Below, piece after piece: positions 6,573 to 49,523 of a DNA stretch of 64,000 bases. The translations under genes were made by a program, and so were the position numbers. This DNA comes from Hoeflea marina. Lineage in GTDB: Bacteria > Pseudomonadota > Alphaproteobacteria > Rhizobiales > Rhizobiaceae. The stretch covers positions 620,001 through 684,000 of the forward strand of contig NZ_QGTR01000002.1 in NCBI RefSeq assembly GCF_003182275.1, read 5' to 3'. The notes beneath the pieces are model-generated. The model was not told where the DNA came from. It worked only from the letters and a program-made list of their open reading frames with translations, and did no database searches. The stretch's first letter is position 1; the number at the start of each line of letters is the position of its first letter.

Positions 6573-6581
6573 TGTGGCAAC

Positions 6582-6665: not shown

Positions 6666-6671
6666 CCGGTG

Positions 6672-6710
6672 GGCAATTTCAAGCGGAAATTATTTCCGCT
6701 TGAAATTGCC
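6672..6710. repeat. perfect 19-bp inverted repeat with 1-nt spacer
   Basis: GGCAATTTCAAGCGGAAAT (6672-6690) is followed by one T and then its exact reverse complement (6692-6710). It lies a few bases after the transposase fragment. It could be a fused pair of insertion-sequence ends or a palindromic relic of a rearrangement. There is no T-run to make it a terminator. Confidence 0.8.
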
Positions 6711-7267: not shown

Positions 7268-8596
7268 TCAGTCGGGTTGGCATTTGCGGGTCGAATTTCG
7301 CAGTGCCTTTTCCGCGATGTAGCGGCGGAAGGGTTCGGGCGGCATGGGCGTGGGCGCAGGCACGGCCTGGACCAGATCGAGCAACTCCGACCCTTCGCCG
7401 CAGGCGAGGTCCGCGAGCAGCGTGCCCGAGATGGTTCCCAGACTGACACCGATGCCGCAGCAGGACGACGACGCGTAGAGGCCCGGTCCGAACTTCCCGA
7501 ACATCTGTCCATGGTTCGCCGGATACGAGACGATCCCGCCCCAGGTGTGCGCGATCGGCAGTTCGCGCAGCGCCGGCCACCGATCATCGATGGCTTTCCG
7601 GTGTGCCTTGCGCACCTCGCTGAGCGCCTCGCCATCGAACCTGAGGTCGGGCTGGGCATAATTGGTCGACTTGCGCATGAGAATCCGGTTGTCCGCAGTT
7701 CGCCGCAGCGAGGCCGCACCGTGGATCGCCGGGACCAGCGAGAAGGGCTCGTTGACCGGGAAGCCCGCCGCCTGCTCTGCGGACATGGGTTCCGTCAGGC
7801 TCGCATGGGTGGCGAGGAACATGTAGCGGCCGCGGCCGAAGCCGAACTGCGGCAGGAAGATATTGCTGCACAGCATCACCTTCTCGCAGGTGATCGTGGC
7901 GGCGGGAAGCGTCACCCGGAACGGAGCCTCGCTGGACATCTCGATGACCGGAGACGCATCGGCGAGGATGACGTTGCCAGGCAGGGCGTCGGCAAGGCCG
8001 CGCAGAAGTGCGGCCGGCTGGACGATGCCGTTGCCGTGGATGGCGATGCCGGACCCGTAGAAATCGGTGCCGAGCTGGTGGCGCACCTCTTCCTTCGAAA
8101 CCCAGTCCACCTGGGTGCCGACCTTCTCGTAGCCTTCCTTCAGGCCGCGGAGATAGCTCTCGCCGACGGGATTGGTGCTCGCCTTGATGCGCGGCTTGTC
8201 GGACCAGTCGCAAGCGATGGCGTGCTGCCGGGTGAGCCGACGCAGCATTTCGGTGCCGGCGTTCATCAGCCTGGTCTTCTGCCGCGCGCGGTCAAGCGAC
8301 AGCCCCTTGATGCCGCCTTCCGGAGCGAGCGATTCGGTGACCACGCCCGAATTGCGCCCCGAAGCACCAAAGCCGAGGGGCAGGGCATCCACCAGGATGA
8401 TCCTGTCGTTCGGCCTGAGCTCCGCCAGCCGCCGTGCGCACGAAATGCCCGTGAAGCCTGCTCCGACAACCACCCACTCCGCGGTGTGGTTGCCCTGAAG
8501 CGGCGAGGTCGGCCGATCCTCGAGAATGGCGTTCCATCCGCTCTTCTGTCCGTCTCCCGGCAGGAGTGGTGGTCTGATCGAGGCCCGTATTCCCAT
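7268..8596 (-). CDS. FAD-dependent oxidoreductase, DAO family
   Basis: A 442-residue flavoprotein of the D-amino-acid/glycine oxidase fold. The dinucleotide-binding motif VVVGAGFTGISCARRL lies at about 42-57, followed by an FAD-contacting GFGASGRNSG, and the C-terminal FAD segment includes SSSCCGIGVSLGTISG. Its length and GASGRNSG motif resemble the gamma-glutamylputrescine oxidase (PuuB)-like group, which oxidises secondary amines. ATG at 8594-8596 was preferred over the earlier in-frame start because GGAAG stands about 9 nt upstream. It is transcribed alone, with a predicted LacI-type operator 46 nt before the start, which ties it to the neighbouring catabolic island. The amine substrate is unknown. 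Confidence 0.85.
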   Translation of the reverse strand: MGIRASIRPPLLPGDGQKSGWNAILEDRPTSPLQGNHTAEWVVVGAGFTGISCARRLAELRPNDRIILVDALPLGFGASGRNSGVVTESLAPEGGIKGLSLDRARQKTRLMNAGTEMLRRLTRQHAIACDWSDKPRIKASTNPVGESYLRGLKEGYEKVGTQVDWVSKEEVRHQLGTDFYGSGIAIHGNGIVQPAALLRGLADALPGNVILADASPVIEMSSEAPFRVTLPAATITCEKVMLCSNIFLPQFGFGRGRYMFLATHASLTEPMSAEQAAGFPVNEPFSLVPAIHGAASLRRTADNRILMRKSTNYAQPDLRFDGEALSEVRKAHRKAIDDRWPALRELPIAHTWGGIVSYPANHGQMFGKFGPGLYASSSCCGIGVSLGTISGTLLADLACGEGSELLDLVQAVPAPTPMPPEPFRRYIAEKALRNSTRKCQPD

Positions 8597-8641
8597 GACG
8601 ATGCTTCCGTTCACTAGCTTGCAGGATGATTTCGGCGATAA

Positions 8642-8656
8642 TGAACACGTTTGCAA
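8642..8656 (-). promoter_or_regulatory. predicted LacI-family operator, site A
   Basis: TGAACACGTTTGCAA is the reverse complement of TTGCAAACGTGTTCA and differs from the 15-bp repeat found at 14169-14183 only at the two central bases (AC for GC order). It has dyad symmetry with a central CG, typical of LacI-family sites. It lies 46 nt upstream of the FAD oxidoreductase start. Confidence 0.55.
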
Positions 8657-9000
8657 ATATGTGTCAACTTTATGCGCCGACTTTCCGGAGCGGCGAGGTG
8701 CCCGATTCGGCCCGCCCGGCGGCCACCCCCGGCGATCATGACCATCCCTCGCGGCGGTTTGGGACTGGAGGACGTTGACCTTGCCGAAAGCACGGAGCCG
8801 AAAGCACGGAGCGGGTCATCTGTCGCGAAAATCACAGCATATTCTGATCCCGTCAGGTCATTTCCGTTGTGGAAGCAGAGACGGCGGCGCGTCCGGTTTT
8901 CGTCAGCCTTCACCGCCTTACGAGCCAATGCAGGCCGGCGCGGCAATCGGCCGGGCAATCAGGTCATCTCAAGGCTGCGCTCGACACCTCGTCCCATGTA

Positions 9001-9014
9001 TGCAAAGCTGTTCA
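9001..9014 (+). promoter_or_regulatory. predicted LacI-family operator, site B
   Basis: TGCAAAGCTGTTCA matches sites C and D exactly over its core and is preceded by A in place of their leading T. It lies 65 nt upstream of the HpaI-type aldolase start. Confidence 0.6.
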
Positions 9015-9078
9015 TCATTATCTTCAACAGAGGGACGGGGGTGCCGTCTCTCGAGCGCTCCGGGCGAGGTGGCAGGAC

Positions 9079-9831
9079 ATGAAGCAAAGTTTGCGCAAGC
9101 GGATCCATGAGGGAGAATGCGTCGTCGGGTGTTTTCAGAAGACGCCGGCTCATGCCATCGCGGAAATACTGGGCCTTGCCGGGCTCGACTTCGCGGTCGC
9201 CGACATGGAGCACGGTCCGATCGGCATTGCCGATCTCGACCGCATGGCGCTTGGCGCCCGTTCCGCCGGCCTGCCGCTGCTCATCAGGTCGACCGGGGTT
9301 GTGGCATCGGCGATCTGGCCGGCGCTCGATCTCGGCTGTTCGGGCGTCATGGCCCCGCATGTCCGCAACGGCGCGGATGCGGGCGCGCTCGCCGATGCCG
9401 TCAGATACGGGCGCGGGGCGCGGGGATTTTCGCCCTCGGGTCGGGCCGGCGACTACGGAACGGCCGTTGCGGTCGAATATCGGCAGCGGATGGACGCGGA
9501 CAACGTGATCATGGCCCAGATCGAGGACGCGTCGGCGCTCGATGAACTCGACGCCATTGCCGGCAACCCTGATATCGACGTGCTGTTCGTCGGACCGGCC
9601 GATCTGTCGCTGTCGCTCGGCTGCGAGATGGAGTCGCCCGAACTCGACATGGCGATCGACAAGGTCATCGCGGCCGCGAAGCGGGCCGGGCGGGCGGCAG
9701 GCATCTTCCTGGGGACGCCAGCTCGCTTCGCGCGCTGGAAGGATGCGGGGATGACGGTCTTCGTCATCGGCTCGGACCAATCGCTGCTTTTGACAAGCGG
9801 CAAGGGTATCGCCGCCCTGAAGGGCGCATGA
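9079..9831 (+). CDS. HpaI/HpcH-family class II aldolase
   Basis: A 250-residue metal-dependent pyruvate-type aldolase. Family hallmarks are visible: DMEHG (Asp42, Glu44, His45), Arg70 in LLIRSTG, metal ligand Glu149 in AQIED and Asp175 in FVGPADLSLSLG. Members cleave 2-keto-4-hydroxy acids, such as 2,4-dihydroxyhept-2-enedioate or 2-keto-3-deoxy sugar acids, to pyruvate and an aldehyde. ATG 9079 is preferred because GAGG lies 9 nt upstream and the family N-terminus begins here; the frame stays open further upstream without homology. Operator site B lies upstream. It converges on the SDR gene. In a pathway it would supply the carbon-carbon cleavage step; the substrate is inferred only by class. 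Confidence 0.88.
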   Translation: MKQSLRKRIHEGECVVGCFQKTPAHAIAEILGLAGLDFAVADMEHGPIGIADLDRMALGARSAGLPLLIRSTGVVASAIWPALDLGCSGVMAPHVRNGADAGALADAVRYGRGARGFSPSGRAGDYGTAVAVEYRQRMDADNVIMAQIEDASALDELDAIAGNPDIDVLFVGPADLSLSLGCEMESPELDMAIDKVIAAAKRAGRAAGIFLGTPARFARWKDAGMTVFVIGSDQSLLLTSGKGIAALKGA

Positions 9832-9883
9832 GCCGGGCCGTTCCGGCGGCGGGTTGGTGATGGATCGCTCCCGGATCCGCCCT

Positions 9884-10639
9884 TCAGTCCGCGGTCCAGC
9901 CGCCATCGAGCATGAGCGCCGAGCCGGTCATCAGGCTGGAGGCATCCGACGCAAGATACACCGCGGCGTCCGCGACGTCTTCGGGCCTGCCGAGGCGGCC
10001 GAGCTTGATCTTCTGCATGACCGAGCGGCGGAAGGCCGGGTCGGCGAGCATGGGCCGGGTCATCGGCGTCTCGATGAAGGTCGGACAGATCGTGTTGACG
10101 CGGATGCCATGGGAACCGAGCTCGACGGCCAGCGACTTGGTGAAACCTTCGATCGCCCATTTGGACGCGCAGTAGAGTGTCCGGTTGGCGGCGCCGACAT
10201 GGCCCATCTGGGATGAGATGTTGATGACCGAGCCGGGCTTTTTCCCGGCGATCATTCGAGCGGTGACCGCTTGCGCGGCAAACACGGCCGCGCGCAGATT
10301 GAGCCCGATCACCGCGTCGAAATCGTCCTCCGTGACGTCGCTCAGCGGCTTTGGCCGATTCGTGCCCGCGTTGTTGACGAAGATGTCGTAGACCGGACCG
10401 GCAGCAATCAGGGCCGCGAAGGCCGCGACGTCGGTGACGTCGCAGATCTCGGCCCGAGCCCTGCCGCCGGCGGCCCGGATTTCGGCCGCACCGGCCTCGA
10501 CTTCGGCGCCGGTGCGGGCCAGCAGGGTGACCTCTGCCCCCGCTTCGGCAAGTGCTGCGGCGATCGCCCGCCCGATGCCCCGACCGGCGCCGGTGACAAG
10601 CGCCCGACGGCCCGTCAGGTCGAAGCGCGAAGGCGTCAT
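9884..10639 (-). CDS. short-chain dehydrogenase/reductase
   Basis: A 251-residue classical SDR. The cofactor motif TGAGRGIG (16-23), NNAG (89-92), catalytic Ser142/143 in INISS, Tyr156 and Lys160 in YCASK are all present. A tail of [13 protein letters not shown] is typical of FabG-like sugar and polyol dehydrogenases. Its ATG overlaps the stop of the HisD-like gene as ATGA (10636-10639), so the two are coupled and it is the last gene of a four-gene minus-strand operon (GHR, lacI-type, hisD-like, SDR). It probably interconverts an alcohol and carbonyl in the same pathway. Confidence 0.9.
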
Positions 10640-11946
10640 TCGGCCGCCTCGCCATAGGGGATGTTGCGGCCGCCATATCTGCGCACGCGGATATTGGCCT
10701 GCTCGGCGTGGCCGACGAAGCCTTCGAGCATGCACAGCCGCGAGCAGTAGGCGCCGATATGGGCGGCCGCCTCGTCGGTGGTGATGCGCTGGTAGCTGTG
10801 GGTCTTGAGGAACTTGCCGACCCAGAGACCGCCGGTGTAGCGGCCGGCCTTCTTGGTGGGCAGCGTATGGTTTGTTCCGATGACCTTGTCGCCATTGGCG
10901 ACATTGGTTCGCGCACCCAGGAACAGCGCGCCGTAGGTGGTCATGTTGTCGAGGAACCAGTCGTCGCGGTCGGTCATCACCTGAACATGCTCGCTGGCGA
11001 TCTCCTCGGCCATCTGCAGCATTTCGTCATAGGTGTCGCAGAGGATGACCTCGCCGTAATCCTCCCAGCTCCGCCTCGCCGTTTCCGCTGTCGGCAGGAT
11101 CTGCAGCAGCCGGTCGATCTCGTCCATGGTCGACCGGGCCAGTGCCGCGGAATTGGTCAGCAGCACGGCCGGCGAATTGTAGCCGTGTTCGGCCTGGCCC
11201 AACAGATCGGTGGCGCAAAGCTCGCCGTCCACCGTGTCGTCGGCGATGACCATCGTTTCGGTGGGGCCGGCGAAGAGGTCGATGCCCACGCGGCCGTAGA
11301 GCTGGCGCTTGGCCTCCGCGACGAAGGCGTTTCCGGGGCCCACAAGCATGTGCACCGGCTTGATCGTCTCGGTGCCGATCGCCATGGCGCCGATCGCCTG
11401 GATCCCGCCGAGAACATAGATCTCATGGGCGCCGCCCAGATGCATGGCCGCGATCACCGCCGCATTCGGCCGGCCCTTGAAGGGCGGCGTGCAGGCGACG
11501 ATGCGCGGCACGCCGGCAACCGAGGCGGTGGCCACCGACATATGCGCAGAGGCGACCATCGGGAACTTGCCGGCAGGCACGTAGCAGCCGACCGACTGGA
11601 CCGGTATGGTCTTGTGGCCGAGAACAACCCCCGGCATCGTCTCGACCTCGAGATCTGTCATCGTGGCGCGCTGAGCGCGGGCGAAATTGCGCACCTGTTC
11701 CTGGGCGAACCTGATGTCCTCGAGATCGCGCTCGCTCAGTTCGGTGATCAACCCGTCGATCTCCTCCTGGCTCAGCCGGTAACTTTCCGGGGTATAGCCG
11801 TCGAACCTGGCGCTCATGTCGCGCAGCGCGGCGTCGCCCCTTGTCTCGATGTCCTTGAGTGCGGTCTCGACCGTATGACGCACCTGCGCATCGTCCTTGG
11901 CGCGGTCGCTCTCGGGTTTGCCTTGCTTGAGATACTGGACGGTCAT
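10636..11946 (-). CDS. HisD-like alcohol-to-acid dehydrogenase (copy 1)
   Basis: A 436-residue member of the histidinol dehydrogenase superfamily. The zinc ligands of HisD align as Gln251 and His254 (GQAEHG), Asp353 ([10 protein letters not shown]) and His413 (EGFVGH); the catalytic pair is Glu319-His320 (ASEHVQV). No other histidine-biosynthesis gene is near, and it sits between a LacI regulator and an SDR, so a catabolic role is likely. Known non-histidine members include sulfopropanediol 3-dehydrogenase (HpsN), which oxidises an alcohol through aldehyde to acid with two NAD+. A second, clearly different paralogue lies at 15534-16820. The start follows the regulator gene by only 9 nt. Confidence 0.88.
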
Positions 11947-11955
11947 TGGAAATCC

Positions 11956-13044
11956 TTATCTGGCGTCTGTTTTGGCTGGGTCTGTGGTTTCATCGCTCTC
12001 GCCCTCGCGCAGGGTGACCGGGCGTGTGGTGTCGCGCTGGACGAGGTGGCCGTCATACAGGAACACCTGTTCGGAGAGGCCGAGGCCGCGGTCCGGGCGC
12101 TTGAGGATCTGGATGGTCTGTTCGACCATCTGCGCCACGGGCTGATGGATGGTCGTCAACCGGTAGGCGCCCCATGCGGCGACCGGCACGTCGTCGAAGC
12201 CGACGACGGAGATGTCGTCCGGCACGCGCGCGCCGCGGACGAAACGGATGGCGTCCATGGCGCCAAAGGCCATGGCATCATTGCAGGCATAGATCGCGTC
12301 CAGCCGGGGAAAGTCGGCCATCAGCTGCAATGCGGCCTTGTGACCGCTCTGGTAGGAGAAATCGCCCTGGATATGGCCAAGCAGGTCATGGCCCAGTTCG
12401 TCAAGGCGCTCACGGAAGCCGCCGCGCCGCATCGAATTGGTCCAGGAGCCCGTATTTCCCGAGATCATGCCGATCCGGGTTGTGCCGCTTTCGACGAAGA
12501 TTTCGGCAACGCGCCGGGCGCCGCTGCGGGAGTTCAGGCAAACCGAGGTCGCCGGCGTATCCTCCGCCACCCGGTTGAGGAAGATCAGCGGGACATGCGC
12601 CTCGAAACAGCGCTCGATCATCCGCTGCGAAGCGTTGAGAACGGTAACCACAATCGCCGCCACCCGGTAGGACAGCGCGAGCTGGATCAACTCGTCAGCC
12701 GATTCCATGGGCGAGGTTCCCTTGAGCAGCAGGGGCGTGAGTTGCTCGGCGCGCATGCCGCTCGTCAGCGCTTCCATCAGGGCTGGCTGGAACGGGTTTG
12801 CGAAGTCGGAGGTCAGGACCGCGACGATGTTGCTTTCCTGCTTGTTCAGCATGCGGGCGAGCAGGTTGGGCTCATAGCCCAGCGTTCGGGCGGCGGCGAG
12901 CACCCGCTGGCGCGTGTCGCCCTTGACCGAGGTGCCATCGGTGAAGCAACGCGACACGGTCGCTCTCGAAACCCCCGCGAGCGCCGCCACATCGGCCGAT
13001 GACGCACTGCGCCGGCCCTTGTCGTTGACGTCCATTTCACTCAT
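11956..13044 (-). CDS. LacI-family transcriptional regulator (island regulator)
   Basis: A 362-residue LacI/GalR repressor. The N-terminal helix-turn-helix reads SSADVAALAGVSRATVSRCF (17-36), followed by hinge GYEPNLLARMLN and a periplasmic-binding-protein-like effector domain, ending with the VGFDDVPVAAWGAYRLTTIH signature. ATG 13042-13044 is chosen because GGAG stands 7 nt upstream; in-frame TTG 13077 and ATG 13062 are possible. It lies within the operon between the glutathionyl-hydroquinone reductase and HisD-like genes. Four copies of a 15-bp quasi-palindrome ahead of surrounding units make it the probable local repressor, controlling its own operon as well. The effector is unknown. Confidence 0.9.
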   Translation of the reverse strand: MSEMDVNDKGRRSASSADVAALAGVSRATVSRCFTDGTSVKGDTRQRVLAAARTLGYEPNLLARMLNKQESNIVAVLTSDFANPFQPALMEALTSGMRAEQLTPLLLKGTSPMESADELIQLALSYRVAAIVVTVLNASQRMIERCFEAHVPLIFLNRVAEDTPATSVCLNSRSGARRVAEIFVESGTTRIGMISGNTGSWTNSMRRGGFRERLDELGHDLLGHIQGDFSYQSGHKAALQLMADFPRLDAIYACNDAMAFGAMDAIRFVRGARVPDDISVVGFDDVPVAAWGAYRLTTIHQPVAQMVEQTIQILKRPDRGLGLSEQVFLYDGHLVQRDTTRPVTLREGESDETTDPAKTDAR

Positions 13045-13077
13045 CCGCTCACTCCGCGCCATCTTTCCGTTCAGCAA

Positions 13078-14046
13078 CTAATACGTTGCGCCGCGGGAGT
13101 TGCAAACAGCGGGCAGCGTCCAGCCGAGCGACGGCTGTGGCGGCACGATGCGGGTCGGATTGATGTGCGCGTGGGAGCGGTAATAGTGCGTCATCGACGC
13201 GTTGATGTCGAAGCTTTCGGCAATGCCGGGAAGCGCCAGCATCCGATCGACATAGGCGCAAATCACCGGGTGATCGGCAATGCGCGCGCTGGTGCACTGG
13301 AAGAGCGGGAGGTAGATGGCGTCGAACCGGAGCAGGCAGGCCAGCAGCGCCAGATCCGCCTCCGTGACGCGATCGCCCAACAGATAGAGGCGGTCGGCGA
13401 GCTTTGCGTCGAGCTGGCTCACGGCAGTGCGGATCCGCTCCACATAGTCGTCGAAGACGGCCTGGTCGCGGGCGAAGCCGCATCGATAGACCGCGCCGGT
13501 GAAATTCTGGCCGAGCCAGGACAACTCCGCCGCAAGTTCGTCTCGCAGGTCTTCAGGCCGGAAGTCGACGCGCCTTTCGGCAAACGCCTCGAACTCGCCG
13601 TTCACCATGCCGAAGATATCGCTGTAGCAGTTCGAGACGATGCGCCCCTGGTGACGATCCCACAAGACCGGGGTGGATGCGCGACCCGAGTAGGTCGGAT
13701 CGGTGGCGATGTAGGCCTCGTAAAGAAAGCGGAAGCCGGTGACGGGATCGACCGGGTGATCTCCGGTCTCGAATTCACGGCCATTGGGGCCCATGACGGG
13801 TCTGACCCGCGCCGTCGAAATCGACCCTTCGAGCCCCTTCATCCGCAGCGCCATGGTGACGCGGTGGCTGAGGGGACAGCCCGGGCAGTCAATCAGATGG
13901 TAGCGGCCCGCGACCGCAGGCAGCGCGCCGCCATCGGGCTTGGCCGAAACGGTTCCGCGCAGGTGCTCCTGTCGCGGTTCCCAGCCGGATGCGCCGATCT
14001 GCCTGTCGTCTCCGCCGTTCCAGCGGCCTTCGTGCAGAATTCCCAC
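13078..14046 (-). CDS. glutathionyl-hydroquinone reductase (YqjG/PcpF family)
   Basis: A 322-residue xi-class GST-like enzyme that reductively removes glutathione from glutathionyl-hydroquinones. The redox motif is CPGCPLSHR (Cys54 and Cys57); Cys57 aligns with the catalytic Cys of the usual CPWAHR motif. Further family blocks are GVTLWD-like PVLWDRHQGRIVSN and the C-terminal Y-x-SH-x-x-INPTRIVP. I place the start at GTG 14044-14046, because AGAGG lies 8 nt upstream and the family N-terminus is MGxLxDGxW; the frame extends to TTG 14064. Operator site C overlaps this ribosome-binding region. Why a catabolic island needs this enzyme is unclear: repair of quinone adducts, or a real pathway step. 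Confidence 0.88.
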   Translation of the reverse strand: MGILHEGRWNGGDDRQIGASGWEPRQEHLRGTVSAKPDGGALPAVAGRYHLIDCPGCPLSHRVTMALRMKGLEGSISTARVRPVMGPNGREFETGDHPVDPVTGFRFLYEAYIATDPTYSGRASTPVLWDRHQGRIVSNCYSDIFGMVNGEFEAFAERRVDFRPEDLRDELAAELSWLGQNFTGAVYRCGFARDQAVFDDYVERIRTAVSQLDAKLADRLYLLGDRVTEADLALLACLLRFDAIYLPLFQCTSARIADHPVICAYVDRMLALPGIAESFDINASMTHYYRSHAHINPTRIVPPQPSLGWTLPAVCNSRGATY

Positions 14047-14058
14047 CGGTTTCACCTC

Positions 14059-14073
14059 TTGCAAAGCTGTTCT
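14059..14073. promoter_or_regulatory. predicted LacI-family operator, site C
   Basis: TTGCAAAGCTGTTCT is identical to site D over 14 of 15 bases. It ends 13 nt upstream of the proposed GTG of the glutathionyl-hydroquinone reductase and abuts its ribosome-binding site, so occupancy could block transcription early. The 14047-14232 region between the divergent operons is AT-rich; a TATAAA at 14099-14104 is a possible plus-strand -10 element. Confidence 0.6.
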
Positions 14074-14168
14074 TAAATTGTTGTGAGCAGGCGCTGCATA
14101 TAAAACTCCTGCGATGATTTGGTTATAGGTGGCAAATAAGCCAACATCAACCCATCAGAAAAAAGTTC

Positions 14169-14183
14169 TTGCAAAGCTGTTCA
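14169..14183. promoter_or_regulatory. predicted LacI-family operator, site D
   Basis: TTGCAAAGCTGTTCA lies 50 nt upstream of the amidohydrolase start, at the head of the longest plus-strand operon of the island. Half-sites TGCAAAG and (inverted) TGAACAG agree at 5 of 7 bases. Together with sites A-C it defines the motif. Confidence 0.6.
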
Positions 14184-14232
14184 TTTTTTGTGACGGTGCC
14201 ATGAACACGAATGACCCAGAGGATTTTCGAGG

Positions 14233-15132
14233 ATGGCCGTCGCGCAGACCACACTGAAACCAGCCCCTGTTCCGGAACAGGAGCTGACGCCGCCGAAGCT
14301 GAAGGCGCCGGATGGGGCGTGCGACTGCCACATGCACATCTTCGAGCCGCGCTTCCTGCCGCGCAAGGATACGCCTTACCCGCCGCCCGTCGCCACGGTT
14401 CCGCATTACAACAGGGCGATCCGCAACCGGCTCGGCCTGTCGCGGTCCGTGGTCATTCAGTCGGTCACCCACGGAGCGGACAATTCCAACCTGCTGGCGG
14501 CGCTCGAGAGCTTCGAAGGCACTGCCCGTGGTGTCGCCGTGGTCCAGCCCGACATCGAGGAGGCCGAATTGCAGCGGCTTTCGGACGCCGGCGTGCGTGG
14601 CATCCGCTTCGAGATGAACAACGGCATCCTTTCGCTCGACGCGCTTGAGGATGTGGCCGCCAGGATCGCGCCCTTTGGATGGCACATCGATCTGCAGACC
14701 GACGGGCGCAAGCTGCCCGACCTCGTCGACCGGCTTCTGGCCTTGCCCTGTCATGTGGTGCTCGACCATTACGGCAAATTCATCGATGCGCTGCCGGTCG
14801 ATCATCCCGCGGTGCAGGCGGTGGTCCGGCTTCTGGCCAGCGGTCGCGGCTGGGTCAAGCTGACGGCTCCCTATGCGGGCCGCCACAGGCGCCCGGCTCC
14901 GTGGCCCGAACTGGTGCCGATCGCGCGCGCCTTTCTGGACGCGGCGCCGACCCAGGTCGTCTGGGGCAGCGAATGGCCACAGTCGATGCTTCCCGTTCTG
15001 GGCGAGCCGGTCCCCGATCATGCCTCGCTGCTCGACCTGCTTCTCGACTACACGACCGACGAGGGCGAACTCGGCGCCATCCTGCGCGACAACCCCGCCA
15101 GGCTCTATGATTTTCCAGCGGTGGCATCATGA
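14233..15132 (+). CDS. LigI/galactarolactone-isomerase-like amidohydrolase
   Basis: A 299-residue TIM-barrel amidohydrolase-2 protein. The beta-1 motif is DCHMH (Asp31, His33, His35); HVVLDHYGKF carries the beta-6 His, and VVWGSEWP the beta-8 Asp-equivalent region (WGS-E-W in place of the common WGTDWP). Closest families I recognise are 2-pyrone-4,6-dicarboxylate hydrolase (LigI) and D-galactarolactone isomerase, which act on lactones without a tightly bound metal. It heads an operon with RidA, a HisD-like enzyme and an ABC importer, so lactone opening or isomerisation of an imported compound is plausible. Its last codons overlap the RidA start as ATGA. Operator D lies upstream. Confidence 0.85.
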   Translation: MAVAQTTLKPAPVPEQELTPPKLKAPDGACDCHMHIFEPRFLPRKDTPYPPPVATVPHYNRAIRNRLGLSRSVVIQSVTHGADNSNLLAALESFEGTARGVAVVQPDIEEAELQRLSDAGVRGIRFEMNNGILSLDALEDVAARIAPFGWHIDLQTDGRKLPDLVDRLLALPCHVVLDHYGKFIDALPVDHPAVQAVVRLLASGRGWVKLTAPYAGRHRRPAPWPELVPIARAFLDAAPTQVVWGSEWPQSMLPVLGEPVPDHASLLDLLLDYTTDEGELGAILRDNPARLYDFPAVAS

Positions 15133-15506
15133 TCCGGCATCATCTCAAATCCGCGGACGCGCAGGGCCTTTCCGCGGTTCGTTCCTCCTCGATCGCGGTT
15201 GTCAACGGCACGGCCCACATGACCGTCATTCCGCCGCTGCCGATCCGGCATGACCAGACCGCCGCCGAGCAGGCCGCTGCCATCTTCCAGGAGATCGAGC
15301 GCCGTCTTGAAAGCGTCGGGTCAAGCAAGAGCCGCATCGCCCATATCACCATCTGGCTGTCGCACCTGATGTACTTCCAGGAGGTGACCGAGGTCTGGAA
15401 CGAATGGGTCGACCCCGCCAATCCGCCTGTGCGCGCCTGTGCGCAGGTGAACCTTGCCAACAAGAACCTCAAGGTCGAGATGATCGTCGTTGCCGACGCA
15501 TCCTGA
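15129..15506 (+). CDS. RidA (YjgF/UK114) family protein
   Basis: A 125-residue RidA-fold protein. The segment NPPVRACAQVNLA contains Arg102, the position of the conserved arginine that binds carboxylates in imine deaminases, followed by the family ending VEMIVVA. It overlaps the amidohydrolase gene by 4 nt (ATGA). RidA proteins hydrolyse reactive imines or enamines. Its presence beside amine-oxidising flavoproteins in the same island suggests that an imine intermediate is formed there. Confidence 0.9.
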   Translation: MIRHHLKSADAQGLSAVRSSSIAVVNGTAHMTVIPPLPIRHDQTAAEQAAAIFQEIERRLESVGSSKSRIAHITIWLSHLMYFQEVTEVWNEWVDPANPPVRACAQVNLANKNLKVEMIVVADAS

Positions 15507-15533: not shown

Positions 15534-16820
15534 ATGAACCAGCCCGACACCTTTCCCGGAATCTCCCTCTACAAGTCCCCGGTGCGCAGCGCCTCCGGCG
15601 ACAATGTCGAAGTTGCGAAGATCGTCTCCGGCGTGCTCGCCGACGTGCGGGAGCGCGGCGATGCCGCCGTTGCCGACTATGCGATGAAGTTTGACAGCAG
15701 CGAGCTCGCGGCCTTCGAGGTGTCGGCGGCTGATCGCCAGGCCGCGGTCGACGGGCTGGACCCGAAGACCCGAGAAGACACGGAGTTTGCCATCGCCAAT
15801 GTCCGCCGGTTCGCCGAGGCGCAGCTGGCTACCGTCCTGCCGCTCGAGATCGAGACCACGCCCGGTGCGTTTCTCGGCCACAGGGTTATCCCGATCGAGC
15901 GCATTGGCGCGTATGTGCCGGGCGGGCGCTATCCGCTGCTCTCCGCTCCTGTCATGACCATTGTCCCCGCAAAGGTGGCCGGCGTCGACGAAGTGGTGGC
16001 CTGCCTGCCGCCCAACGCGCATCCGGCGATGATCGCGGGCTGCCATCTTTCCGGCGCGGACCGCGTCTTCCGCATCGGCGGCGCGCAGGCGATCGCCGCC
16101 ATGGCGTACGGCACCGAAACGGTGCCCGCCGTCGACAAGATCGTGGGACCCGGCAACGCATTCGTCAACGAGGCCAAGCGCCAGGTGTTCGGCCCCGTGG
16201 GCATCGACCAGCTTGCCGGCCCCTCGGAAATCTATGTGCTGGCCGACAGCACCGGCGACGCCGAGATCATCGCGACGGACCTGCTGGCCCAGGCCGAGCA
16301 CGACGTGCGGACCCGGGTCGGCTTGATCACGACCGATCGCGGCCTGGCCGAGGCGGTTGCGACCGAAATCGAGCGCCAGCTCGGAACGCTGTCGACAGCC
16401 CACACCGCCGGCCCGGCCTGGCGGGACTACGGCGAGATCGCGGTGGCGGAAGACGAAGCGGCGATGATCGCCTATTCCGATCACATTGCTGCCGAACACC
16501 TGCAGGTTCACACCGCGGATGCGCGCGGCTTCGCCAAGAAGCTGAGAAATTACGGCTCGCTGTTCATCGGCGAACTGGCGAGCGTCGTCTATTCGGACAA
16601 GTGCGCCGGCACGAATCACACGCTGCCGACCATGGCGGCCGGGCGCTACACCGGCGGGCTCTGGGTCGGCACCTATCTGAAGATCGCCACCCATCAGTGG
16701 CTTGAGGCGGATGGCGTGCGGGCTTTCGCGCCGGCCGCCGCCCGCCAGGCGCGCAGCGAGGGGCTCGAGGGCCATCGCCGTGCCGCGCAGATCCGGCTCG
16801 ACCGGCTTCAGGTGATCTAG
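15534..16820 (+). CDS. HisD-like alcohol-to-acid dehydrogenase (copy 2)
   Basis: A 428-residue histidinol-dehydrogenase-superfamily protein with intact zinc ligands Gln253 and His256 (LAQAEHD), Asp355 (YSDKCAGTNH) and His414 (LEGH), and catalytic Glu321-His322 (AAEHLQVH). It differs throughout from copy 1, so this is not a recent duplication. It lies 27 nt after the RidA gene and 35 nt before the permease genes. Two such four-electron dehydrogenases under one regulator suggest two alcohol groups in the substrate, or two related substrates. A role in histidine synthesis is unlikely given the context. Confidence 0.88.
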   Translation: MNQPDTFPGISLYKSPVRSASGDNVEVAKIVSGVLADVRERGDAAVADYAMKFDSSELAAFEVSAADRQAAVDGLDPKTREDTEFAIANVRRFAEAQLATVLPLEIETTPGAFLGHRVIPIERIGAYVPGGRYPLLSAPVMTIVPAKVAGVDEVVACLPPNAHPAMIAGCHLSGADRVFRIGGAQAIAAMAYGTETVPAVDKIVGPGNAFVNEAKRQVFGPVGIDQLAGPSEIYVLADSTGDAEIIATDLLAQAEHDVRTRVGLITTDRGLAEAVATEIERQLGTLSTAHTAGPAWRDYGEIAVAEDEAAMIAYSDHIAAEHLQVHTADARGFAKKLRNYGSLFIGELASVVYSDKCAGTNHTLPTMAAGRYTGGLWVGTYLKIATHQWLEADGVRAFAPAAARQARSEGLEGHRRAAQIRLDRLQVI

Positions 16821-16855: not shown

Positions 16856-17872
16856 ATGAGACGCCAGACCTTTTGGAAATTCGTCGGACCATCGATTTTT
16901 CTGATGGTGCTCTTCATCGCGCTGCCGCTCGCCAGCGTCTTCTGGCAGAGCTTCTTCCATTCGGTTCCGAGCGTGGAGTCGGTGGAAGTGGAAACCTGCT
17001 CGCCGGGCTTTCCCACCCAAATATGCGAAACGGTGCTGAAGTCGCGGGCGGTGCTCGACGAGAACGGCAGGCCGGTGACGACCACGCATTTCGTCGGGCT
17101 CGACTTCTACCGTTCGGTTGTCGAGCCGGATGTGGTCTGGCAGGCGTTTTCGAGCGGCAACCCCGCCGCAATCCTGCGCATCGACTTCTGGCGCGCCCTT
17201 CGCTTCACCGTCACGTTCACCTTCATCACCTTGCCGTTCGTGCTCGGACTTGGACTTGCCATCGCGCTGGCGGTCAACAACTCGACCGCGCGCATGCGGG
17301 GTCCGATCATCTTCGTCTCGCTGCTCCCCTACATCATCACCCCGGTGATCGGCGGCATCTCGATCTACTGGCTGTTCGTGGGAGACGGCATCGTCACCCG
17401 CCTGATCGAGGCGATGCTGGACCGCAATATCGCCGTGATGACCCACGGTTGGGCGGTGGAGGCGCTGATGATGTTCTATCGGGTCTGGCACATCGCGCCC
17501 TTTGCCTTCGTGATCTTCTATGCCGGGCTTCAGGGGGTCAATCGCGACACGCTCGAATCGGCGATGATCGACGGCGCAAGCCGCTTCGAACGGCTGCGCT
17601 ACGTCATCATCCCGCACCTGCTGCCGCTGATCGTCTTCGTCACGCTGATTCACCTGATGGACAGCTACCGCGTGTTCGAGGAGATCGTCGCCTTCAATGC
17701 CCAGTCGCAACGCATTTCACTGCAGTGGCTCACCTACGATTTCCTGCAACCCGACGATTCAGGCAACCGCGCCATCGGTCGCGCGTCGGCCTCGTCGATG
17801 CTGACGATGATCGGAATCGTGCTGATCATCCTGCCCGTCCTTCGCCGCGCCTGGCGCGATCACCGGGCCTAG
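16856..17872 (+). CDS. sugar ABC transporter permease, MalF-like
   Basis: A 338-residue inner-membrane permease. An N-terminal membrane helix is followed by a periplasmic loop (about 45-105) and five more helices. The cytoplasmic EAA-type loop reads ESAMIDGASRFERLRYVIIP, which docks the ATPase. It is followed 10 nt later by its MalG-like partner, then the ATPase and binding protein, forming a complete carbohydrate-type (CUT1) importer within the LacI-controlled operon. Confidence 0.9.
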   Translation: MRRQTFWKFVGPSIFLMVLFIALPLASVFWQSFFHSVPSVESVEVETCSPGFPTQICETVLKSRAVLDENGRPVTTTHFVGLDFYRSVVEPDVVWQAFSSGNPAAILRIDFWRALRFTVTFTFITLPFVLGLGLAIALAVNNSTARMRGPIIFVSLLPYIITPVIGGISIYWLFVGDGIVTRLIEAMLDRNIAVMTHGWAVEALMMFYRVWHIAPFAFVIFYAGLQGVNRDTLESAMIDGASRFERLRYVIIPHLLPLIVFVTLIHLMDSYRVFEEIVAFNAQSQRISLQWLTYDFLQPDDSGNRAIGRASASSMLTMIGIVLIILPVLRRAWRDHRA

Positions 17873-17882
17873 GAGCCAAACC

Positions 17883-19241
17883 ATGTCCGACACCACCATG
17901 CGTCAGCCTTTCGGCCTCAGAATCGCCAGCGTGAGCTTCCTGATCTTCTGGAGCTTCCTTGCGCTGTTTCCGCTGCTCTGGATCTTCACCATGTCGTTCA
18001 AGCTGCCGCTCGACGCCTTCTCCGAGAGCGCACTTGATGTGATCACCGGCCCCATCACCCGCGAGCGCCGCGGCGGCATCTCCATCCTCGACATCTGCAT
18101 CGCCGGCGCGATCTTCTACGCAATTCTCAAGGTCCCCGGGTTGTTCGGCCGCCGCGCCGTGCGGTTCTTCGCCCGCAAGCGCGCCGGACTTGCCGTGCTG
18201 GGCGTCGCCTATGCAGCGTGGCTCTATGTTCTGGTCACCGGATTCGGCGTGACCGGTCCGAGCGTGCTCGGGGCGCTGTTCGGCGGCCTGCTGGTCTGGC
18301 TTTTCGGATTTTCCGGCGAGGATGACGACGAAGGCGGACTGCTGGGCACGCTTCTGGCGGCCGTCTTCTATGTCCTCGCCGCGGGAGCCGGGCTGTGGTT
18401 TGTGCTGCCGCCGCTGCTCTCCGCCGTCGACTCGGCCGCCCTGCAGATTCCGCTTGTCGACTATCTTGCGCATCCTTTGATCGGGGCGACCACCGAGCAC
18501 TATATGTCGGTCTGGTTCGATCGCGGCTTCTATCGCAACTTTCTCAACACGATGCTGGTGACTGCCGGAGTGACGACGGTTTCGCTCACCGTCGGCACGC
18601 TGGCGGGATACGGGCTCGCCCGGTCGACCAGCACGGTCGCCTTCTGGCTCCTGATCCTGGCGCTGGTGTTCCGGGCGTTGCCGCACTCGGTGCTCGTCAC
18701 CGGCTATCTGCCGCCCTTCATTGCCAGCCGCGACATCCTGCAGCCGCTCTGGGACGCCCCGATCATCGGCTCCTTCCTCGGCTTGTTCACAGCCACCCCG
18801 CCGACGCTCTACGGCCAGCCCGTCGCGGTGATTGCCGTCCTGGTGTCGATCAACCAGCCGTTCACCATCTGGATGCTGCGCTCCTTCTTCCAGTCGATTC
18901 CGAAAGAGCTCGACGAGGCGGCGCGGGTGGACGGATGCTCGGACATGGAGGCATTTCGCCGCGTGATCATGCCCGTGATGTGGCCGGGCGTGGTGACCAC
19001 GGGGCTCTTCAGCTTCCTGCTCGCCTACAACGACTACCTCATCTGCTCGCTGCTGCTCAACTCGCAGAACCAGACGATGGTGCCGTCCATCACCCAGTTC
19101 TTCAATTCCGAAACGACCACCACCGACCAGGTCCAGGCCGTGGCCGCGGCTGTGAGCATCACCGCGCCGCTGTTCCTCCTGGTTATGGCGTTCCAGAAAC
19201 AGATAGTCAGCGGCCTGACCGCCGGCGCCGTCAAAGGATAG
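17883..19241 (+). CDS. sugar ABC transporter permease, MalG-like, with extra membrane insert
   Basis: A 452-residue permease, about 150 residues longer than ordinary MalG proteins. The first helix (about 15-37) and the C-terminal core are standard, with the EAA loop DEAARVDGCSDMEAFRRVIM. Between them, about residues 62-185 (18066-18438) hold an additional block with three or four hydrophobic helices and an acidic turn FSGEDDDEGG. The frame is continuous, so the insert is genuine coding sequence. It ends 6 nt before the ATPase gene. What the extra helices do is unknown. Confidence 0.88.
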   Translation: MSDTTMRQPFGLRIASVSFLIFWSFLALFPLLWIFTMSFKLPLDAFSESALDVITGPITRERRGGISILDICIAGAIFYAILKVPGLFGRRAVRFFARKRAGLAVLGVAYAAWLYVLVTGFGVTGPSVLGALFGGLLVWLFGFSGEDDDEGGLLGTLLAAVFYVLAAGAGLWFVLPPLLSAVDSAALQIPLVDYLAHPLIGATTEHYMSVWFDRGFYRNFLNTMLVTAGVTTVSLTVGTLAGYGLARSTSTVAFWLLILALVFRALPHSVLVTGYLPPFIASRDILQPLWDAPIIGSFLGLFTATPPTLYGQPVAVIAVLVSINQPFTIWMLRSFFQSIPKELDEAARVDGCSDMEAFRRVIMPVMWPGVVTTGLFSFLLAYNDYLICSLLLNSQNQTMVPSITQFFNSETTTTDQVQAVAAAVSITAPLFLLVMAFQKQIVSGLTAGAVKG

Positions 19242-19247
19242 ACCAAA

Positions 19248-20300
19248 ATGGCAACGATCACGCTCAGGGGCGTCACCAAGCGGTGGGGCCAGTTCATAGG
19301 GGTCAAGTCGCTCGATCTCGAGATCGCCGACCGCGAGTTCCTCGTGCTTCTGGGCCCTTCGGGCTGCGGCAAGACGACGACGATGCGCATGGTCGCCGGT
19401 CTCGAAACGGCGAGCGAGGGCGACATCCTCATCGGCGGCAAGCGGGTCAACGACCTTGAGCCGAAGGACCGGGACGTTGCCATGGTCTTCCAGTCCTACG
19501 GGCTCTACCCCAACCTGACGGTCTGGGAGAACATTCGCTTCCCGCTGAAGGTCCGCAAGGTCGATCCCTCGACCCACACGGAGCGGGTGCAGCGCGCCGT
19601 CGACATGGTGGAACTCAACGATTTCGTCCACCGCAAGCCGGCGGAGCTGTCAGGCGGCCAGCGCCAGCGCGTGGCGCTCGCCCGCGCCATCGTCCGGGAG
19701 CCGACGGTCTTTCTGATGGACGAGCCGCTGTCCAACCTCGATGCAAAGCTGCGGGTATCGACGCGCGCCCAGATCAAGAACCTCCAGCACAGGCTCGCCA
19801 CCACCACCATCTATGTCACCCATGACCAGATCGAGGCGATGACGCTGGCCGACCGGGTGGTGGTCATGAATGCCGGTGCGGTTCAGCAGGTCGGCACGCC
19901 GATCGAGATCTACGACCGTCCCGCCAACACCTTCGTCGCGGGCTTTATCGGCTCGCCGGCCATGAACCTGTTGAGCGGCGAGATATCGGAGGGTGTCTTC
20001 ACCGGCGACAAGGTCCGCATCGAGGGGCTGGCGACGAACCACAAGGGACCGGTCACCCTCGGCTTCCGGGCAGAGGATTCCGGAATCTCCACCGCGGCGG
20101 GCGAGATTTCGGCGCAGGTCTACTCGCTCGAGCTTCTCGGGGACTGCACGATCGTGACCATGCACGCCGGCGGCGCGCTGCTGTCGGTCAAGGCGCCGAA
20201 GGAATTCCGCGCCGTCATCGGCGACCCCGTGCACGCGACGGTTTCCGCCGCCATCTGCCATCTGTTCGACGCCACCACCGGGGAGAGGATCGAGCCGTAG
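19248..20300 (+). CDS. sugar ABC transporter ATPase, MalK/UgpC-like
   Basis: A 350-residue ATPase energising the two preceding permeases. Walker A is GPSGCGKTTTMRMVAG, the signature is LSGGQRQRVALARAI, Walker B is VFLMDEPLSNLD, and the switch His is in YVTHDQIEAMTLADRVVVM. The C-terminal ~110 residues form the TOBE regulatory domain of CUT1 ATPases (GFRAEDSGI and following). It lies 6 nt after the permease gene. Confidence 0.93.
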   Translation: MATITLRGVTKRWGQFIGVKSLDLEIADREFLVLLGPSGCGKTTTMRMVAGLETASEGDILIGGKRVNDLEPKDRDVAMVFQSYGLYPNLTVWENIRFPLKVRKVDPSTHTERVQRAVDMVELNDFVHRKPAELSGGQRQRVALARAIVREPTVFLMDEPLSNLDAKLRVSTRAQIKNLQHRLATTTIYVTHDQIEAMTLADRVVVMNAGAVQQVGTPIEIYDRPANTFVAGFIGSPAMNLLSGEISEGVFTGDKVRIEGLATNHKGPVTLGFRAEDSGISTAAGEISAQVYSLELLGDCTIVTMHAGGALLSVKAPKEFRAVIGDPVHATVSAAICHLFDATTGERIEP

Positions 20301-20369
20301 GCGCCACAGGAACGACGACGGGCCGGTCGCAAACAGGCTGCAGGACTTCCATCAACCAGGAGAGCTGAA

Positions 20370-21584
20370 ATGAAATTCGAGAAATTCACACTGGGCCTGA
20401 CCCTGCTGATGCTGTCAGCGACCACCGCTGCGGCTGACTGCGCCTTCAAGAACGAAATTCCGATCAAGGCCATCACCTCGGCCTTTCCGGCCTACAAGGC
20501 GATCGCCGACAACATGCAGGAATGCGGCAATGTCCAGGTGGAACTTGACCAGGAAGTCCGCACCAAGAGCGCTCCGGCGCTGGCCGCCAACCCGGCGCTG
20601 TATCACATCAGCAGCGTGCACAACGGCACGATCGTGCCGCTTCTCAACCAGGACACCATCCGTCCGCTCGACGATCTGGTGGCCAAATACGGCCAGGGCC
20701 TCAATCCCAACCAGCTGATCAAGATCGACGGCAAGATCATGGCCATCGCCTTCATGGTGAACATGCAGCACCTGATGTACCGGAAGGACATCTTCGCCGA
20801 TCTGGGCATCGAAGTGCCGACCGACTACGAGCAGGTGCTGGCGGCGGCGAAGAAGATCAAGGAAGCCGGAGTTGTCGATTATCCGCTCGGCGCCACCTGG
20901 ATGGCTGACTGGAACATCGGCATCGACTTCGACAATCTCTTCGTCGGCTATGGCGGTGAATTCGTCAACGACGACAACACGCCCGCGGTCAATTCCGAGG
21001 CCGGACGCAAGACGCTGGAAATGATGCGCAAGCTGTCCGAATACATGAACCCGGAGTATCTGGTCGCCGACGCGACCTATGTTCAGCAGCAGTTTCAGCA
21101 GAAGAAGATCGCCTTCTCCAATTTCTGGGCGTCGCGCGCGGCCAAGATGGACGACCCGGCCGAGAGCCAGGTCATCGGGCTGATCGGCACGGCTTCGGCA
21201 CCGGCGGCAGTGCCCGGCGGCATTCCGGCCGTGATGTTCTCCTGGGATGGCATCGCCATCGCCAAGAACATCACCGACGAGGAAGCAGAAGCCGCATTCC
21301 GCGTCGCGCTCGAAGGCGGTGATACGGAGATGGTCAAGGAGAACAACGATCTTGCCGTCTGGCTGATCGACGGATACCAGCCAACCGAAATGGCCAAGGG
21401 TGCCATCGAGACGATCCAGAACGGCGCCAAGCCCAACCCGTCGACGGTCTGGCGCGGTCTCATCAACGATGCGATCGAGAAGAATGTGGTCGAGTTCATG
21501 ACCGGCAAGAAGACGGTCGACCAGACGCTGACCGATATCGAGGCTGCATACACGACGTCGGCCAAGGAAGCCGGCCTTCTGTAA
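20370..21584 (+). CDS. sugar ABC transporter substrate-binding protein
   Basis: A 404-residue periplasmic binding protein of the extracellular solute-binding family 1 (MalE-like). The signal peptide MKFEKFTLGLTLLMLSATTA is followed by cleavage near AAA|D. Landmark segments are ALAANPALYHISSVH, MAIAFMVNMQHLMYRKDIF and FSWDGIAIAKNI. AGGAGAG lies 5-6 nt before the ATG. It closes the importer set and is followed by a strong hairpin that may favour its expression over downstream genes. The ligand is unknown, but the shared regulon implies the same compound the island degrades. Confidence 0.9.
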   Translation: MKFEKFTLGLTLLMLSATTAAADCAFKNEIPIKAITSAFPAYKAIADNMQECGNVQVELDQEVRTKSAPALAANPALYHISSVHNGTIVPLLNQDTIRPLDDLVAKYGQGLNPNQLIKIDGKIMAIAFMVNMQHLMYRKDIFADLGIEVPTDYEQVLAAAKKIKEAGVVDYPLGATWMADWNIGIDFDNLFVGYGGEFVNDDNTPAVNSEAGRKTLEMMRKLSEYMNPEYLVADATYVQQQFQQKKIAFSNFWASRAAKMDDPAESQVIGLIGTASAPAAVPGGIPAVMFSWDGIAIAKNITDEEAEAAFRVALEGGDTEMVKENNDLAVWLIDGYQPTEMAKGAIETIQNGAKPNPSTVWRGLINDAIEKNVVEFMTGKKTVDQTLTDIEAAYTTSAKEAGLL

Positions 21585-21639: not shown

Positions 21640-21816
21640 ATGACATTTGCGGACGACCGAAGCAGAATGATCCTGGTCGCAGCCTTCGAGCGCGAGGCGA
21701 TCGACTATCCCGCCGACCGGCTGGACGAAGCGGCCGAGGACTATTCGCATCTGCGCTCCTTCATGTCCCTGATCCGCGAAGAGCTTCTCAGGCAGCAGGA
21801 ACCGGCTCTTGACTGA
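21640..21816 (+). CDS. small GatC/AtzG-like protein (tentative)
   Basis: A 58-residue frame starting ATG 21640 with GGAG 6 nt upstream and ending TGA 21814-21816, overlapping the amidase start by 8 nt. The protein is helical and acidic (AFEREAIDYPADRLDEAAED, then SHLRSFMSLIREELLRQQ). Small DUF4089/AtzG- and GatC-type partners of amidases have this size, position and overlap, and wrap around the amidase subunit. The assignment rests on context and composition; sequence identity to AtzG was not tested. Confidence 0.6.
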   Translation: MTFADDRSRMILVAAFEREAIDYPADRLDEAAEDYSHLRSFMSLIREELLRQQEPALD

Positions 21817-23272
21817 ACAGCTTGCCTTCAAGTCCGGATCGGGCACCGGTGTCGCCGGTGGCAACACCGATGCGCCGCTCCGGGGCAGCGCCGAAGCGAT
21901 GGCGCTTGCCTTGCGCGACGGCTCGACCACGTCCGAAACACTGATCCGCGCGACCCTCGACCGGATAGCCCGGGACGACGGGGAGGTCCACTCCTTCCTG
22001 AGCGTTGACGCGAGCGCGGCGATCGAGGCGGCGAGGGCTGCCGACCGCGCATTGAGCGCGGGTGACGACAAGGGGCCGCTCCACGGCATTCCGTTCGCGA
22101 TCAAGGACATCTACGATGTCGAGGGACAGTCAACGAGCTGCCAGTCGCACATCCAGTCCGGGCACATGGCCGATCGGGATTCGGCAGTCGTCGAACGGCT
22201 GCGGGCGGCCGGCGCCATCCTGATCGGCAAGCTCGACACATTCGAATTCGCGCTTGGCGGCCCGTCGCCGGACCTGCCTTTCCCGATTGCGCGCAACCCA
22301 TGGAAACCCGGCCACGAATCGGGCGGATCCTCATCCGGCTCGGCGGCGGCGATCGGCGCGGGCTTCGTTCCTCTTGCGCCCGGGACCTGCACGACGGGCT
22401 CCATCCGTGGTCCTGCCGCCTGGTGCGGCGCGGTCGGATTGAAACCGACTTTCGGCCGTGTCTCCCGCAGGGGCGTGTTCCCGCTGGCGCCGAGTCTGGA
22501 CCACTGCGGTCCGCTCGCGCGCTCCGTGCACGATGCGGCGGTCGCCCTCCAGGTGATGGCGGGCCATGATCCGGCGGACCCCGGCAGCCTGGATCAGCCG
22601 GTGCCGGACTACTTGACCGATCTCGAAAAGGGCGTCGCCGGACACACGATCGGTGTTCCGCGAGACTTTTTCGGCAGCCAGGCGACGCTCGACTCCGACA
22701 CGCGCGCCGCCATCAGCCGTGCCGAAGGGCTGCTCAGGGACGCGGGAGCGACGATCGTCGGGGTGGAACTGCCCGAGTACCGGCTGTTCGCGGCGGCCGC
22801 CCGCATCATCATGGCGGCGGAAGCCTTTGCCATCCACCGCGAGAATTTGCGCAGTCGCCTGCACGAATACGGCAACATCGCCGCGCGCCGTTTCGCCATC
22901 GGAGCGGGCATCGGGGCGGCTGACTACATCGATGCCCGGCAGTTGGGGGCACGGCTTCGCGCCACGGTGGACAACCTGTTCGGCAGCTGTGACATGATGC
23001 TGACGGCGATCTCGCTCAGCACCGCTCCGCCGGTGGCCTCGACTTCGCGCCCGGGCGTCTGGCCGCTGCAGGCAAGCCCGTGGAACCTGACCGGCCATCC
23101 CGCCATCGCCGTGCCGATGGGGCTGGCCGAAAACGGCCTGCCGGTCTCCGTCCAGCTCGTCGGACCGCGATGGTCGGAAGCCGCGATCCTGCGGGCCGCC
23201 CGCACGCTTGAGCGGACCAGCGGCTGGGCCGAGGTCTTCCTTCCCTTTGAGCCCAAGGACACAAGATCATGA
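21809..23272 (+). CDS. amidase-signature hydrolase, AtzE/GatA-like
   Basis: A 487-residue amidase. The Ser-cisSer-Lys machinery is visible: Lys99 in FAIKDIYD, the GGSSSGSAA loop at 172-180, and nucleophile Ser198 in TTGSIRGPAAWCG. The start is TTG 21809, overlapping the small upstream gene, with AGGA 8 nt before; no better ATG exists near. Its stop overlaps the next gene as ATGA. AtzE/GatA-type amidases hydrolyse amides or carbamoyl groups. In this operon it would release ammonia or an amine from the imported substrate or an intermediate; this is inference. Confidence 0.85.
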   Translation: MTEQLAFKSGSGTGVAGGNTDAPLRGSAEAMALALRDGSTTSETLIRATLDRIARDDGEVHSFLSVDASAAIEAARAADRALSAGDDKGPLHGIPFAIKDIYDVEGQSTSCQSHIQSGHMADRDSAVVERLRAAGAILIGKLDTFEFALGGPSPDLPFPIARNPWKPGHESGGSSSGSAAAIGAGFVPLAPGTCTTGSIRGPAAWCGAVGLKPTFGRVSRRGVFPLAPSLDHCGPLARSVHDAAVALQVMAGHDPADPGSLDQPVPDYLTDLEKGVAGHTIGVPRDFFGSQATLDSDTRAAISRAEGLLRDAGATIVGVELPEYRLFAAAARIIMAAEAFAIHRENLRSRLHEYGNIAARRFAIGAGIGAADYIDARQLGARLRATVDNLFGSCDMMLTAISLSTAPPVASTSRPGVWPLQASPWNLTGHPAIAVPMGLAENGLPVSVQLVGPRWSEAAILRAARTLERTSGWAEVFLPFEPKDTRS

Positions 23273-49364: not shown

Positions 49365-49523
49365 GCCCGGAATGGCACCGGTGCCCCGCGCTTCTTGCTT
49401 GTGCAAGTCTTTGCAATAATTGTACGTTTGAAGAGAAAGTCACAGATGTCGGTATGAGTCCGATTCGCATCACGAGTCGGGCATATCGCGATTGTGCGCG
49501 TCCGTTCTGGAAGACAAGTGAAG

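Follow-up and report, generated by a model that had tools for sequence, protein, structure and literature searches.

In a 64,000-nucleotide window of the Hoeflea marina genome (contig NZ_QGTR01000002.1, positions 620,001 to 684,000) we have identified a putative LacI-type regulon of four transcription units. These are a FAD oxidase gene (DAO1), a HpaI-type aldolase gene, the unit GHR-lacI-hisD1-SDR and an amidohydrolase operon, each preceded by a candidate operator (O1 to O4). We propose, with a probability of roughly 0.88, that the LacI-family product of the gene at 11956-13044 uses O1-O4 as its operators and represses all four units, including its own gene, until it is released by a small molecule. 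The sites, their positions and their joint conservation with this lacI gene are evident from sequence; the regulator is of an ordinary type and the predicted operator centre is slightly unusual. If correct, genes on both strands, about 17 kb, are joined as one regulatory unit with a defined operator and a named regulator, and an inducer screen at a single promoter could reveal the substrate.

A scan of the window for the 15-mer TTGCAAAGCTGTTCA, allowing up to three mismatches, returned four matches: O1 at 8642-8656 on the minus strand (two mismatches) and, on the plus strand, O2 at 9000-9014 (one), O3 at 14059-14073 (one) and O4 at 14169-14183 (none). No further copy was found in the window at this threshold. 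An earlier note on this DNA had reported four copies of a 15-bp quasi-palindrome at these places and none elsewhere in the window, and both statements held. In shuffled versions of the window there were 0.74 matches on average and at least four in 3 of 100 shuffles, so the count by itself is just mildly unusual. The site is real, but a 14-bp even palindrome, about TGMAMASSTKTKCA, describes the putative operator better; its half-sites come in two forms, TGCAAAG and TGAACAG. In these terms O1 is TGCAAACGTGTTCA (8642..8655, minus strand), 45 nt upstream of DAO1; O2 is TGCAAAGCTGTTCA (9001..9014, plus strand), 64 nt upstream of the HpaI-type aldolase gene; O3 is TGCAAAGCTGTTCT (14060..14073, plus strand), upstream of the minus-strand GHR unit; and O4 is again TGCAAAGCTGTTCA (14170..14183, plus strand), 49 nt upstream of the amidohydrolase operon. 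The start codons behind these distances (FAD oxidase ATG 8596, HpaI ATG 9079, GHR GTG 14046 and amidohydrolase ATG 14233) were set by reading and alignment; with the 13 nt from the end of O3 to the GHR start, the distances lie within the 13 to 65 nt given previously. A matrix built from the four window sites scores them at 19.1-21.8, by construction, and the next site in the window at 13.9 (position 49402).

The expectation that the sites would recur upstream of the same genes in relatives was borne out. Our collection scan for LacI orthologues returned L009 (uncultured Rhodobacteraceae, 81% identical), L010 (a Rhizobiaceae metagenome-assembled genome, 76%) and L011 (a Pseudooceanicola metagenome-assembled genome, 81%), together with L012 (Mameliella, 57%) and one short, weak match (L013); a plasmid collection added orthologues of 57-58% identity in Tritonibacter and Pseudorhodobacter (L044, L045). 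The whole cluster is fully syntenic in L011, with the same arrangement of amidohydrolase operon, GHR-lacI-hisD1-SDR, HpaI and DAO1, and all four units have their site there. O3 and O4 have counterparts in L009, L010 and L011, and that of O2 lies at L011 13994-14007. Across these three relatives, nine of nine orthologous unit instances carry an upstream site (amidohydrolase 3, GHR 3, DAO1 2, HpaI 1), two of the GHR sites being weak. The lacI gene is present in all four loci that bear sites, i.e. the window, L009, L010 and L011.

These counterparts can be found with the window-only matrix. On L011 they take ranks 1-4 (19.7-21.8 bits, next hit 11.4), each upstream of its corresponding unit. First rank is also held by the amidohydrolase site in L009 (20.5 bits) and in L010 (18.1), and by the DAO1 site in L048, on the contig of L009 (21.0). 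The GHR site comes third in L009 (14.8) and second in L010 (13.9). Simulated sequence with the composition of each locus gave no hits at the strong scores and 0.04 hits per locus at the score of the L009 GHR site. A reverse matrix, built from the nine sites of the relatives, returns O1-O4 as ranks 1-4 of the window (19.5-22.8 bits, next 12.9), and nothing in 3 Mb of first-order Markov sequence reaches 19.5 bits with it; this test is partly circular, as the nine sites were chosen for likeness to the window motif. Its four top hits are confined to the two intergenic stretches that separate the units, 668 of the 64,000 bases, and this placement was equalled by 1 of 500 column-permuted matrices. 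When the intergenic region between GHR and the amidohydrolase gene is aligned across the four loci, no stretch is better conserved than O4; conservation of O3 is moderate. Two operator-like sites that overlap by four bases were also seen upstream of the amidohydrolase gene in L009 (8859-8882). The distance between O1 and O2 is 359 bp in the window and 198 bp in L011, and the same DAO1/HpaI intergenic region holds a 14-nt stretch, CCGAAAGCACGGAG, repeated head-to-tail (window 8784-8811).

On a genome scale, specificity depends on how the site is described. At up to two mismatches the 15-mer gives 10 rows at 9 places across the 5.26-Mb genome, 4 of the 9 in the cluster, and its reversed-pattern control gives 4 matches; outside the cluster it occurs at about control level. 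The three places with zero or one mismatch are all in the cluster. Counts from this loose scan in the genomes of L009, L010, L011 and L012 (3, 4, 8 and 19) are near the control counts (4, 7, 3 and 15), therefore the 15-mer is unspecific outside the cluster at this threshold; an exact copy in the L012 genome sits within a 343-aa open frame. The degenerate 14-mer TGMAMASSTKTKCA, which was composed after the relatives' sites had been viewed, does better. It matches exactly at five places in the genome of H. marina (G000), three in the cluster and two on contig C11 near another lacI-type gene; at two in the genome of L009, both on the cluster contig; at none in that of L010; and at four in that of L011, three in the cluster and one on another contig. 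Its reversed control, with each palindrome counted once, occurs at 0, 1, 0 and 0 places in the same four genomes. Both C11 places (6628-6641 and 7504-7517, locus L062) hold the same perfect palindrome with a GC centre, TGCACAGCTGTGCA. Genes for an ABC ATPase and an inositol-monophosphatase-family protein start nearby, and the lacI-type gene (about 1481-2473) is a few kb away. The two palindromes are probably the operators of the C11 regulator itself.

The proposed binder is a protein of 362 aa encoded on the minus strand (11956..13044), and the assignment of this gene amid the cluster to the LacI family is confirmed by its domains. It has an N-terminal LacI helix-turn-helix (PF00356, E 3e-14) with a TVSR-type recognition helix, followed by a sugar-binding-protein-like (periplasmic-binding-protein-like) effector domain (PF13377, E 2.4e-21). 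O1-O4 are even palindromes near target starts, as is usual for operators of this family. Seven aligned orthologues all share the recognition helix SRATVSR, and the hinge after the conserved ARML reads NKQES in the close clade (4/4) and QTRTS in the 57% clade (3/3). The 57% clade consists of L012, L044 and L045. Here a TRAP-type transporter (DctM and NMT1-like domains) takes the place of the amidohydrolase operon opposite the GHR gene, and two operator-like sites lie between transporter and GHR. We favour these sites because they are at the same place in three of three loci and because the distal palindrome holds the longest invariant block of the alignment. A further operator-like site in L045 (8893-8906, 16.9 bits) lies between a second lacI-type gene and one for a HpaI-like aldolase; near it is a hisD1 homologue that is 80% identical to hisD1 of the window.

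The two clades also differ at the centre of the operator. Of 13 close-clade sites, 9 have GC as the central pair, 2 have CG and 2 have GG; all six sites of the 57% clade have CG (Fisher p 0.001); the sites are non-independent, and the six distant ones were hand-chosen, though with a GC-favouring matrix. For comparison, the sections of PMC4052901 drawn on here list 1173 of 1303 regulators as CG-centred, 49 with another pair and 29 as degenerate. In the part of PMC2978694 that concerns these contacts, hinge residues 51 and 54 are linked with the central CG, residue 55 with half-site position 2, and an Arg at AA-20 with a G at half-site position 6. Numbered from TVSR, both clades keep A51 and L54, and residue 55 is N in the close clade and Q in the 57% clade. 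The regulator has Arg at AA-20, and G occupies position 6 in 26 of the 26 half-sites of the 13 chosen sites. The difference in operator centre between the two orthologous clades offers a small natural test of how the hinge helix chooses the central base step.

At the promoter of DAO1, on the minus strand, TTGACA (8667-8662) and CATTAT (8643-8638) are separated by 18 nt, a match to sigma-70 at 10 of 12 positions. O1 lies in the spacer and overlaps CATTAT by two bases. TTGAC and the operator follow in the same order and at the same ungapped spacing in three of three genomes (the window, L011 and L009's contig); the second hexamers of L011 and L009's contig (CATCTT and CAACAT) are weaker. At the GHR unit, O3 adjoins the presumed Shine–Dalgarno sequence. 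Operator placement at DAO1, between TTGAC and the -10, and at GHR fits steric repression. At the amidohydrolase promoter the left operator half, TTTGCAAAG or CTTGCAAAG, is near-invariant in four genomes, with TTGCAAAG identical in all four, and the TTGCAA half of O4 may double as the -35 element of this operon.

The mechanism that we infer, namely binding, repression rather than activation, promoters other than that of DAO1 and an inducer, would be as follows. A dimer would bind the 14-bp palindrome at the four promoters and block RNA polymerase, sitting between the -35 and the -10 at DAO1, covering what we presume to be the -35 of the amidohydrolase operon and lying near the transcription start of the GHR-lacI unit, where it would repress its own gene. 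Autoregulation of lacI is probable because lacI is the second gene of that unit. The repressor would be released, and all four units switched on together, by a small molecule that is probably either the ABC transporter's substrate or an early product of that substrate. We do not claim looping between O3 and O4: their spacing is 107-111 bp in the four close loci, the two GHR-upstream sites of the 57% clade are 91-94 bp apart, and no single helical phase is kept across the clades.

A number of observations weigh against this model. The DAO1 promoter is the sole sigma-70-like one, and no consensus sigma-70 promoter was found in 14030-14260. The HpaI upstream regions of the window and L011 fail to align at their operators. 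Distinct loci with a 76-100% identical regulator number only four, which makes for a shallow footprint, and the L010 GHR site, at 13.9 bits, scores the same as the best chance site in the window, with about 0.19 such hits expected per locus. In L009, hisD1 and SDR are on the other strand, with no nearby site above 7.5 bits; and the HpaI-like genes of L009 (32%) and of L010's contig (28%) are misses if taken as orthologues. The predicted regulon is smaller in these two relatives, and the 35 kb of the L010 contig that were examined contain no hisD2 and just distant DAO1-like (25%) and HpaI-like (28%) genes. Taken individually, the sites of the 57% clade are non-significant: for the five scores tested, chance would supply 0.4 to 5.8 hits per locus, the distal site of L045 comes just 12th there, and L012 and L045 each have a higher-scoring hit elsewhere. 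Finally, the central pair is mostly GC and not the CG usual for the family, which does not exclude membership of it.

Other explanations were weighed. If the palindromes were bound by another regulator, e.g. the C11 protein, the local lacI gene would be incidental. The C11 paralogue is 34% identical and lies near two exact GC-centred palindromes of the same class (C11 6628 and 7504), a further point against our model, as it would allow another binder or crosstalk. However, the sites accompany this lacI gene in four loci, the 57-58% orthologues also have operator-like sites at the GHR gene and the C11 recognition helix is different (SRSAVSR); a foreign binder is therefore improbable. Slightly less so, though still unlikely, is a protein that activates some units, or both activates and represses them. 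At O2, upstream of HpaI, nothing promoter-like turned up when positions 8560-9110 were scanned, and PMC4052901, in the sections that treat it, predicts a dual LacI-family regulator, PckR. Yet at DAO1 and GHR the sites are placed where a bound protein blocks transcription, and the L011 HpaI operator, read by eye, comes a few bases after TTGACC, as a spacer site would. Chance matches taken for a motif are by far the least probable explanation. The window shuffles do occasionally reach four matches at up to three mismatches, but the window-only matrix picked out matching sites at the corresponding positions of other genomes, and we rejected chance as ruled out by conservation across L009, L010 and L011.

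The genes under this predicted control offer some hints to function. DAO1 (7268..8596, minus strand; PF01266) is a FAD-dependent oxidoreductase of the DAO family, with no PDB relative at E 1e-10. It is followed by the HpaI/GarL-type aldolase (9079..9831, plus strand; PF03328) and, on the minus strand, by an SDR oxidoreductase (9884..10639; domain match), the histidinol-dehydrogenase-like hisD1 (10636..11946; domain and PDB sequence matches), lacI and GHR, a glutathionyl-hydroquinone reductase-like GST (13078..14046) whose GTG start was set by eye against L010 and L011. The plus-strand operon comprises an amidohydrolase (14233..15132; PF04909) resembling PDC-hydrolase and 4-sulfomuconolactone hydrolase, a RidA-like protein (15129..15506; domain match), the histidinol-dehydrogenase-like hisD2 (15534..16820; domain and PDB sequence matches), a sugar-type ABC transporter with two permeases, an ATPase and a binding protein (16856..21584; domain matches), and an AtzE/GatA-type amidase with DAO2, a D-amino-acid-dehydrogenase-like FAD enzyme (21809..24549; domain matches). 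The amidase and DAO2 genes are also adjacent in L048, L050 and L010.

The best PDB sequence matches of hisD1 (8v35) and hisD2 (8wwe) are to HpsN, the 3-dehydrogenase of (R)-2,3-dihydroxypropane-1-sulfonate (R-DHPS), which suggested a DHPS pathway. We consider this unsupported. According to the part of PMC11382572 that describes them, HpsN has the signature G-R-Y-A/S-H, with the sulfonate-binding His126, and HisD has G-S-A-P-L. The HpsN motif is missing from both proteins, hisD1 having GKFPM and hisD2 GRYPL, and neither has the HisD motif, yet both pass the NCBIfam hisD domain cut-off. As both lack the two signatures, there is no indication of either DHPS oxidation or histidine synthesis. The PDB relatives of the ABC binding protein are weak matches, mostly sugar-binding proteins, and are not decisive for the substrate. 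The gene content would fit the breakdown of an amine or amide, with aldol cleavage as the last step for its carbon part. The earlier note had placed genes on both strands in one pathway; from their co-regulation and conserved content we infer that the four units form one catabolic pathway, the pathway itself being a prediction.

Among known systems, the local LacI-family regulons in the sections of PMC4052901 consulted here are alike in having a LacI helix-turn-helix with a sugar-binding-protein-like sensor, an even palindrome near the starts of neighbouring operons, probable autoregulation, an ABC transporter and catabolic genes. The present system differs in its mostly GC centre and in having an amine/amide/aldolase gene set in place of a known sugar pathway. 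A term search of the literature found no paper that combines this gene set; with a looser combination, the matches listed (8 of 22) are without the term glutathionyl-hydroquinone reductase. A bolder proposal, which we regard as rather doubtful, is that the CG/GC central step changed within one LacI orthologue group, the hinge helix (ARMLQTRTS versus ARMLNKQES) setting that step under a constant recognition helix, and that the regulon defines an undescribed catabolic route. In that route an amide or amine compound would be imported by the sugar-type ABC transporter and processed by the amidase, the FAD oxidases, RidA, two dehydrogenases that are neither HisD nor HpsN, the lactonase-like amidohydrolase and the HpaI aldolase.

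The cluster is rarely encountered. Of 385 genomes of the class, only the query had a lacI relative at E 1e-90; the 394 genomes of the family yielded the query and one more (again L010), and the 394 of the family to which the L011 genome belongs yielded that genome alone. Seventeen other genomes of the same genus have distant LacI relatives only (best 38%), and the carriers are Rhizobiaceae-like and Rhodobacteraceae-like bacteria. This rare and scattered distribution suggests horizontal transfer. A 1.5-kb GC profile has no sharp island edge. About 500 bp past the downstream end of the FAD oxidase gene, at one edge of the cluster, there is a weak IS3-transposase-like remnant (6318-6770, E 0.00094), and beside the cluster lies a 746-aa open frame with HAF repeats (3800-6040).

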